This document shows positions 19,577 to 20,991 of a stretch of 64,000 nucleotides of DNA, in pieces; position 1 is the first letter of the stretch; every line of letters starts with the position of its first letter. The DNA is taken from positions 3,248,001 to 3,312,000 of the forward strand of contig NZ_CP029193.1 of the NCBI RefSeq assembly GCF_008642355.1, in the 5' to 3' direction. Under the pieces are notes generated by a model. The model made no database searches and was not told the origin of the DNA. It saw only the letters and a program-made list of their open reading frames with translations. Both the position numbers and the translations under genes were made by a program. Source of the stretch: Streptomyces venezuelae (GTDB taxonomy: Bacteria > Actinomycetota > Actinomycetes > Streptomycetales > Streptomycetaceae).

Positions 19577-19840
19577 TCAGACCGCGGCCTTCTTCAGTCG
19601 GCGGCGTTCACGCTCGGACAAGCCGCCCCAGATACCGAATCGTTCGTCGTTCGCGAGTGCATACTCAAGGCATTCGGAACGGACTTCGCAGGCGAGGCAG
19701 ACCTTCTTCGCCTCGCGCGTGGAGCCGCCCTTCTCGGGGAAGAAGGACTCGGGGTCGGTCTGGGCGCACAGTGCGCGCTCCTGCCAGCCGAGTTCCTCGT
19801 CCGCGTCCTCGACCAGCAGTTCCTGAACCAGCTCGGTCAT
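19577..19840 (-). CDS. whiB: WhiB, iron-sulfur sporulation regulator
   Basis: An 87-residue Wbl protein that works with WhiA to start sporulation septation in aerial hyphae. The four cluster-binding Cys are 25, 48, 51 and 57, followed by the GIWGG turn (69-73) and the basic RERRRLKK tail used in DNA contact. The sequence from GWQERALCAQTDPESFF onward is, from memory, essentially identical to the S. coelicolor protein. ATG 19840 has GAGGGG 6-7 nt upstream. It is transcribed away from the cysteine dioxygenase gene across ~430 bp. Confidence 0.96.
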   Translation of the reverse strand: MTELVQELLVEDADEELGWQERALCAQTDPESFFPEKGGSTREAKKVCLACEVRSECLEYALANDERFGIWGGLSERERRRLKKAAV

Positions 19841-19911
19841 GTGCGCCCCTCGTCTGTCTGTGCGTCCCCGTGGTGCTGCTGTGCCGGTTTCGGGTGAACG
19901 ACACGAGTGAA

Positions 19912-19941
19912 ATTACAAGTGTGCCGATCCGGGCCAGTCAA
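19912..19941 (-). promoter_or_regulatory. Candidate whiB promoter
   Basis: On the minus strand TTGACT (19941-19936) and TGTAAT (19917-19912) are separated by 18 bp. Transcription would begin near 19905, giving a leader of about 65 nt to the whiB ATG. The remaining ~290 bp between this promoter and the promoter of the plus-strand leader ORF shows no gene. Confidence 0.45.
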
Positions 19942-20233
19942 GCCGAGATCTGCTATTGGGCCCCTTATTCACTCTGCGGAACCAAGGCTGTGCGGAAAGT
20001 GTTCAAATCGGCCTAAACCATGACACCGTTCGGCAGCCCGTCCGGCGCTCCGCAACACGTTCCCCCAAAAAGTGATCTCAGTCGGAGATCACCCGGTCGG
20101 GTCTCAACGAGAAAGACGACGATGTTTGAGCGTCGGTTGCTGCGCCATGTGTCCGGAGGGGCATCTGCACAAACCTTTCGCCTGACAGAACAACCGGATG
20201 AGGTGAAACATATTCCACATAGTGGACATTGAG

Positions 20234-20262
20234 TTGACACCGGAGGTGTAAGCCGCTGTTCT
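20234..20262 (+). promoter_or_regulatory. Candidate promoter of the cysteine dioxygenase leader, with overlapping inverted repeat
   Basis: TTGACA (20234-20239) is a perfect -35; 17 bp later TGTTCT (20257-20262) is a poor -10. The predicted start of transcription, around 20268-20270, coincides with the ATG of the leader ORF, so a leaderless transcript is plausible. TTGACACC (20234-20241) and GGTGTAAG (20245-20252) form an imperfect inverted repeat over the -35, a possible repressor site. Confidence 0.4.
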
Positions 20263-20269
20263 GGTGGGC

Positions 20270-20362
20270 ATGCTCGCGAACCTGGCTCTTTCGATGACCC
20301 GCACCTGCGGGTCCATCGGTGCTGCCCACGCGCGCTGCTGCTGTTCCTGCTCCAGCTGTTGA
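20270..20362 (+). CDS. Cysteine-rich leader peptide (putative attenuator uORF), 30 aa
   Basis: A short ORF from ATG 20270 (in-frame GTG 20264 and ATG 20294 are alternatives) to TGA 20360-20362. It contains six Cys codons among 30 (residues 13, 23, 24, 25, 27, 30) and ends in ARCCCSCSSC. Cys is among the rarest residues in such genomes, so a run of TGC/TGT codons just before a cysteine-catabolic gene is a strong sign of cysteine-sensing translation. The stop is 113 nt before the dioxygenase ATG. GTTCCT (20343-20348) in the Cys-codon run is complementary to AGGAAC (20461-20466) at the dioxygenase ribosome site, a possible masking pair. The regulation is inferred, not shown. Confidence 0.72.
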   Translation: MLANLALSMTRTCGSIGAAHARCCCSCSSC

Positions 20363-20475
20363 GTCCACTCCAGCTGTAGAGCCGTCCCATCACTCGACCT
20401 TTCTCTCACTGCTCTCCCTGCGCTTCACCTCCTTCGCGACACCCCAGCACTCTTACGTTGAGGAACCACCGCACG

Positions 20476-20991
20476 ATGAACAGCGACAGCGACCTCCAGA
20501 TCGCCGGCGACATCCTCGAAGTCCCCCACCTCCTGCAGCCCGCCCGCGAGCACCCCGCCACCGTGGCCGAGTTCGTCGGCCTCGCCCGCGCCATCGCCGC
20601 CGACCGCTCCCAGTGGGAGCACCTCGTCGAGTACGACGCCACCAGCCGCTGGTACCACCGCCTGCGCACAGGACCCGGCTACGAGGTGTGGCTGCTCTCC
20701 TGGGTCCCCGGCCAGGGCAGCGGCCTGCACGACCACGGCCGCTCCTCCGGCGTCCTCACCCTCCTCCAGGGCGAGCTGACCGAGCGCACGGAACGCGGCA
20801 CACGGGCGCTCGGCGCGGGCGCGCAGCGCGTCTTCGCGCCGGGGTACGTCCACGAAGTCGTCAACGACTCCCTGGAACCCGCCGTCAGCCTGCACATCTA
20901 CTACCCCGGCCTCACCGAGATGCCGATGCACTCCGCCCAGTGCGCCGCCTCCGTCGCGCCGGACGCCGCGGAGGATGTCGTAACCGCCTGA
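20476..20991 (+). CDS. Cysteine dioxygenase family protein
   Basis: It oxidises cysteine to cysteine sulfinate with a mononuclear iron held by a cupin fold. The 171-residue protein has the first cupin motif GSGLHDHGRSSGVLTLLQGELTE, holding His ligands, and a later FAPGYVHEVVNDS with the third His. ATG 20476 is preferred, with gaggaa 12 nt upstream; TTG 20458 is an in-frame alternative overlapping that site. It is preceded by the cysteine-rich leader ORF and followed 34 bp later by fbiA, with which it may be cotranscribed. Confidence 0.9.
   Translation: MNSDSDLQIAGDILEVPHLLQPAREHPATVAEFVGLARAIAADRSQWEHLVEYDATSRWYHRLRTGPGYEVWLLSWVPGQGSGLHDHGRSSGVLTLLQGELTERTERGTRALGAGAQRVFAPGYVHEVVNDSLEPAVSLHIYYPGLTEMPMHSAQCAASVAPDAAEDVVTA

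Follow-up and report, generated by a model that had tools for sequence, protein, structure and literature searches.

In Streptomyces venezuelae, a short open reading frame (ORF) that ends in a cluster of cysteine codons lies upstream of a cysteine dioxygenase gene, an arrangement kept at most Streptomyces loci compared. We read this ORF, at a probability of roughly 0.6, as a cysteine-responsive translational attenuator that would switch the dioxygenase on when Cys-tRNA is scarce. The message would begin at or next to the leader ATG, and the Cys run would have two jobs, gauging charged Cys-tRNA and complementing the dioxygenase mRNA from its start codon into the codons that follow. When free of ribosomes, the run would pair with the dioxygenase start and block it; when Cys-tRNA is scarce, ribosomes would stall on the run, keeping it single-stranded and leaving the dioxygenase start free. 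A stalled ribosome is expected to unblock the start because the strand that blocks it consists of the control codons, and expression at low cysteine is predicted because the longest residence on Cys codons is expected when Cys-tRNA is scarce. Translation of the leader, its response to cysteine and the direction of that response (on at low cysteine) are what we infer from the sequence. An initial annotation had drawn attention to the polycysteine leader ahead of the dioxygenase gene; the observation is confirmed and is stronger than was stated there, and the leader, which is conserved and of leaderless-type geometry, is best read as a cysteine-responsive attenuator.

The locus was analysed within a 64 kb stretch (the window, to which all coordinates refer) of an 8.0 Mb genome. 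The dioxygenase gene (CDO_I; 20476-20991, plus strand) encodes a product that matches PF05995 well above the gathering score (E 2.4e-21; 76.4 bits against 23), and cofD follows it. The leader ORF (20270-20362, plus strand) has 30 codons, six of them for Cys, lies between the dioxygenase gene and whiB (19577-19840, minus strand; PF02467), and encodes the peptide MLANLALSMTRTCGSIGAAHARCCCSCSSC before its stop; an alternative in-frame start is the GTG at 20264. Between the leader stop and the dioxygenase ATG at 20476 lies a spacer of 113 nt (20363-20475, plus strand) that is C-rich and G-poor (43% C, 17% G). The coordinates, the Cys count and the 113 nt gap given in the initial annotation all agree with the sequence. 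Leader codon 13 (20306-20308) is an extra Cys codon, TGC, absent in the strain's nearest relatives. Among ORFs of 15-60 codons with ATG or GTG starts on both strands of the window, the leader is the only one with at least four Cys in its last ten residues, and when 2000 sequences were simulated from a first-order Markov model of 19841-20475, 13 had such an ORF on the plus strand. Rfam covariance models gave no match at E <= 1 across 19800-20700.

That the observation exceeds chance follows above all from the conservation of the leader, which is decisive. The dioxygenase gene was found at E <= 1e-30 in 147 of 150 genomes of the genus, and the comparison covered 131 Streptomyces loci, 110 from this 150-genome search and 21 from a second one. 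The annotation had suggested checking whether the Cys run is conserved, and it is: a search that ignored the promoter found an ATG-initiated ORF with a Cys run ahead of the orthologous dioxygenase gene at 123 of the 131 loci (79 of 80 among named Streptomyces loci, a set overlapping the 131), and 19 of 20 loci from the family's other genera have the leader too, which begins with GTG in L143 and is missing from L136. In 117 of 143 leaders, the last Cys codon is the final codon. Eight loci of the genus lack the leader (L033, L035, L037, L039, L040, L049, L053, L130); five of the eight keep TTGACA within 300 nt, and AACAGC at the gene start is lost in six. L033, L035, L037, L039 and L130, where TTGACA is kept, the Cys leader is gone and the gene start is altered, are natural losses that lend themselves to comparison. 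Among 21 loci from other actinomycete families (L134, L135, L156-L174), a polycysteine leader of this type was not seen. Short candidates that combine a TTGA-type element with 2-4 Cys occur at L166 and L167, weak candidates at L164 and L169, and a single-Cys candidate at L174. The first 125 residues of the enzyme are free of Cys in 119 of 123 leader-bearing genus loci, compared with two of the eight without a leader. A Cys-free enzyme as a sign of expression during starvation was nevertheless rejected, since 19 of the 21 other-family enzymes are Cys-free as well.

Conservation of the Cys cluster at the peptide level could also be expected of a small metal- or thiol-binding protein, with its CxC and CCC motifs, working in trans. 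We consider this very improbable: leader peptides from other genera are so different as to be unrecognisable save for the Cys cluster near the stop (e.g., MSEFASPRSGSTFRRAVNFCCRLCSCCI), synonymous positions are constrained by pairing, the ORF keeps a fixed position before one gene, and profile searches with the peptide returned no Pfam or NCBIfam match.

The geometry upstream of the leader is as constant as the Cys run. A -35-like TTGACA (20234-20239, plus strand), recognised by sequence and conservation, lies 36 nt 5′ of the leader ATG, and a -10-like TGTTCT (20257-20262, plus strand) occupies a conserved position but is far from TAnnnT, the -10 reported for S. lividans in the available text of one study (PMC8079986). 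TTGAC precedes the leader ATG by 36 or 37 nt in all 123 genus leaders, the ORFs having been found promoter-blind; these upstream regions contain 665 ATGs altogether, 123 of which have TTGAC at this distance. Across 141 aligned leaders, the sixth base of the -35 is A in 98-99%, the -10-like element is conserved as T-[GC]-T-C-C-T at 17-18 nt past TTGACA, and the distance from T[GC]TCCT to the leader ATG is conserved at 7 nt. Judging from this spacing, the transcript would start at or beside the leader ATG, yielding a leaderless message. Such a message had been proposed in the initial annotation; the fixed TTGACA spacing fits it, but the -10 is a poor match and a consensus promoter scan called no promoter at the leader -35/-10 site. 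Further 5′ of the leader, a conserved block around CACAAACCTTTCG and GGATGAGGTGAAACA at 20165-20215 recurs across many loci and may be part of the whiB promoters or of a regulator site.

Within Streptomyces, the leader Cys codons show complementarity to the start of the dioxygenase gene (AUGAACAGCGACAGC). When 20270-20500 is folded, the minimum-energy structure (z -2.56) has an anti-start strand built from Cys codons, GCTGCTGCTGTTC (20334-20346, plus strand), paired with 20478-20490 in the first dioxygenase codons, ATGAACAGCGACAGC; 12 of the 13 positions of the window strain's helix pair, with one C-A mismatch. The same fold contains a hairpin that spans the leader stop codon (CAGCTG/CAGCTG; 20350-20381, plus strand). 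Pairing was tested at 115 loci, eight of the 123 genus leaders being excluded for an unclear gene start. The duplex between the leader end and the start region averages -22.2 kcal/mol, compared with -14.4 kcal/mol after synonymous recoding of the leader, -17.4 kcal/mol after permutation of leader codons and -15.1 kcal/mol for stretches elsewhere in that gene. The loss of pairing on synonymous recoding of the leader reaches p <= 0.05 in 96.5% of the loci and that on codon permutation in 52%, p values that overstate independence because Streptomyces species are related. Recoding of the gene side is significant in only 2.6%, because the native gene codons are the common ones. RNAalifold consensus folding recovered the anti-start helix unaided in two of three leader groups, and in two of three a hairpin over the stop codon equivalent to that of the window. 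The initial annotation had instead paired GTTCCT within the leader (20343-20348, plus strand) with AGGAAC, the weak Shine-Dalgarno sequence of the dioxygenase gene (20461-20466, plus strand). GTTCC and GGAAC co-occur at only 52 of 115 loci, whereas positions +1 to +18 of the gene pair with the leader end at a mean probability above 0.5 in the free RNA of 99; the Shine-Dalgarno site was therefore rejected as the main partner, and the gene start is the stronger one.

Codon choice within the Cys run bears on the same helix. The 123 genus leaders use 466 TGT and 155 TGC codons (75% TGT; 466/621); a host coding sample, small because the enzymes are nearly Cys-free and made up of orthologous gene bodies from 143 loci plus three window genes, has 15 TGC and no TGT. 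Third positions are G or C in 80-87% of the other leader codons and in 23% of the Cys codons. With the register chosen without reference to Cys third bases, TGT outnumbers TGC by 203 to 15 opposite A, while opposite G the counts are 13 TGT and 35 TGC; among 88 distinct leader ends the TGT/TGC ratios are 155/14 and 12/21, respectively. Pairing explains much of the TGT bias in Streptomyces. Leaders from other genera (18 leaders; 64 TGT, 20 TGC) share the bias even though their gene start is not an obvious partner, and pairing is therefore not its sole cause; slow decoding of TGT may be a further reason for its use. As TGT is still preferred where the gene start is not an evident partner, the leader may be the older feature, to which Streptomyces added the anti-start.

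The lack of evident complementarity between leader and gene start in other genera would also suit a leader working chiefly on transcription, in which ribosome position sets Rho loading on the C-rich spacer or the formation of a weak terminator. The spacer composition (48.6% C and 23.7% G over 115 genus loci) agrees with this, published expression changes are at the mRNA level, and the accessible part of PMC8079986 presents the known Streptomyces leaders as acting by transcription attenuation. Set against these points, no intrinsic terminator was found on the plus strand of 19900-20520, and the Cys codons chosen in Streptomyces favour the gene start as the target; we regard control mainly through transcription as improbable.

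Folding models with a ribosome placed along the leader bear on the direction of a translational switch. Over 115 loci, the predicted openness of the dioxygenase start is 0.27 in free RNA; placing a ribosome on the first, middle or last Cys codon gives 0.42, 0.53 and 0.47, respectively, and placing it at the leader stop gives 0.43. The middle-Cys placement increases openness at 109 loci. A position scan at 39 of the 115 loci gave about 0.25 for an empty leader or an upstream ribosome, 0.5 on the Cys run and 0.37-0.47 at the stop; the start stays shut until the Cys codons are reached and re-closes towards the stop, with each of three footprint sizes. The predicted differences between ribosome states are moderate. 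The Shine-Dalgarno stretch stays unopened (0.617 free; 0.551 in the middle-Cys state), and when openness is averaged over -15 to +12 the states differ little (first-Cys stall above stop at 52 of 115 loci, middle Cys at 70), an average that masked the effect seen at the start region.

The initial annotation had expected the opposite logic, with the dioxygenase on when ribosomes pass freely. Here the same leader and pairing would operate with reverse polarity: at plentiful cysteine, frequent ribosome passage or ribosomes at the stop codon would keep the start open, and starvation would lower dioxygenase expression. Such a polarity would suit an enzyme that destroys cysteine. In the models, a ribosome at the stop codon leaves the start more open than an empty leader at 106 of 115 loci, the window's own RNA is about equally open in the stop state (0.50) and the middle-Cys state (0.51), and a ribosome on the first Cys codon leaves later GCTGTT copies free (leader pairing 0.29). 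Against it, predicted openness peaks on the Cys codons and is lower at the stop in the 39-locus scan, the middle-Cys state exceeds the stop state at 86 of 115 loci, and a stalled ribosome necessarily covers part of the blocking strand. The anatomy thus suggests that stalling opens the start, whereas published expression points both ways, and we consider reverse polarity rather unlikely.

The dioxygenases of Streptomyces were reportedly the subject of a study by Dominy and colleagues in 2006. By gene order, SCO3034 being whiB, SCO3035 of S. coelicolor is presumably the dioxygenase gene of the window and SCO5772 the second dioxygenase, both assigned by position rather than sequence comparison. 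After 2 h of H2O2, SCO3035 rose 6.5-fold and SCO5772 8-fold, an induction shared with ssu, cys and met genes and absent in an HbpS-SenS-SenR mutant, according to the portion of the study available (PMC4991794); this co-induction with sulfate assimilation genes speaks against reverse polarity. In Streptomyces SCUT-3, by the available account, cdo1 rose 50.2-fold and cdo2 8.3-fold when feather, a food rich in cysteine, supplied all carbon and nitrogen, compared with LB (PMC7181669), which favours it. The H2O2 data fit starvation control, and the feather data fit expression at high cysteine at least as well; neither data set isolates the leader's own effect.

Other sulfur genes of this genome have leaders as well. 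The second cysteine dioxygenase gene (G000:C1, 6.153 Mb), which has a rhodanese gene downstream, is preceded by MTDTDVRLWRRVHMDLVRYAGCVCHPSC (L279:2257-2343, minus strand) with TTGACC 36 nt 5′, a leader present at all 30 genus loci examined out of 53 genomes having the gene. A leader MDRTGNALVSRRHVDLGRMSSAMCPAR (L278:15242-15325, minus strand), which matches NF042934, stands before a nitrite/sulfite reductase-type gene of a sulfur cluster, and MTTTSSRTPATEAITTPGARCMCRMCAF (L315:2392-2478, minus strand), with three Cys codons near its end, lies near metQ genes in a met transport operon. The S. lividans counterpart of the latter, metL, also has three Cys codons and is read as methionine or threonine dependent in the accessible text of PMC8079986. 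Several peroxide-induced operons appear to carry Cys-codon leaders. No Cys leader was found at the genome's cysteine synthase and two rhodanese loci in the stretches examined.

Attenuators that respond to an amino acid are familiar from genes for its synthesis or import. With a deeply conserved one standing before a cysteine-destroying enzyme, the direction of control becomes a well-defined question that can be tested, and the counter-intuitive direction is the one suggested by the anatomy. We tentatively propose, short of even odds, that a catabolic enzyme is here switched on by shortage of the tRNA of its own substrate, that both streptomycete dioxygenases belong to a leader-read cysteine-stress regulon, and that the control codons of the window gene double as its start-blocking strand. 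If so, the dioxygenase would serve an end other than removal of excess cysteine, e.g., supplying sulfite for breaking extracellular disulfides. A search rule for similar switches also emerges, namely to look for control codons with wobble bases that fit the beginning of the gene downstream.

In Erm-type translational attenuators, likewise, a ribosome stalled on the leader makes the start of the following gene accessible, although the signal there is an antibiotic-stalled nascent peptide and not charged tRNA, as proposed for the dioxygenase leader. The S. lividans leaders leuL, trpL, ilvL, alaL, thrL and metL are mostly leaderless, as is predicted here, and likewise have control codons; they are interpreted as acting on anabolic genes by transcription attenuation, and none of the eight leaders listed in the available part of that study is for cysteine or a dioxygenase (PMC8079986). 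In the literature searched, which left most subscription papers outside, no leader before a bacterial cysteine dioxygenase is reported, and priority is not established. The actinomycete family NF042934 ("putative leader peptide", RHVDL-type) likewise comprises short leaders before sulfur genes and in this genome has members ahead of both the sulfite reductase cluster and the second dioxygenase: the leader of the former (cysI) scores 31.8 bits and a relative's second-dioxygenase leader 37.1 bits, above the curated cut-off of 27 bits. The window leader has a Cys run in place of the RHVDL-type motif and does not match this family. The closest parallel lies in the mycobacterial polycysteine leaderless sORFs Ms4527A, Ms4533A and Ms5788A (Canestrari et al., 2020, as described in the accessible text of PMC4633059, PMC13091356, PMC9031893 and PMC13236596). 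The window leader gave no match to NF042936 (Ms4527A) or NF042933 (Ms5788A) at E <= 1, nor did the leaders of two relatives at E <= 10. As far as these sources describe the mycobacterial attenuators, both systems have a short ORF, predicted from promoter spacing to be leaderless here, with consecutive Cys codons by the stop, a downstream sulfur gene and proposed translational control through alternative RNA structure. The dioxygenase leader has the clustered Cys codons near the ORF end before a sulfur gene, and its ability to pair with the start of the next gene is found in Streptomyces and not seen in other genera. The two differ in that the Streptomyces target degrades cysteine, whereas the mycobacterial ones, in the same sources, are biosynthetic or assimilation genes, and in that the start codon region here has the Cys codons as its predicted pairing partner. 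The dioxygenase leader would be a variant of the mycobacterial polycysteine attenuators.
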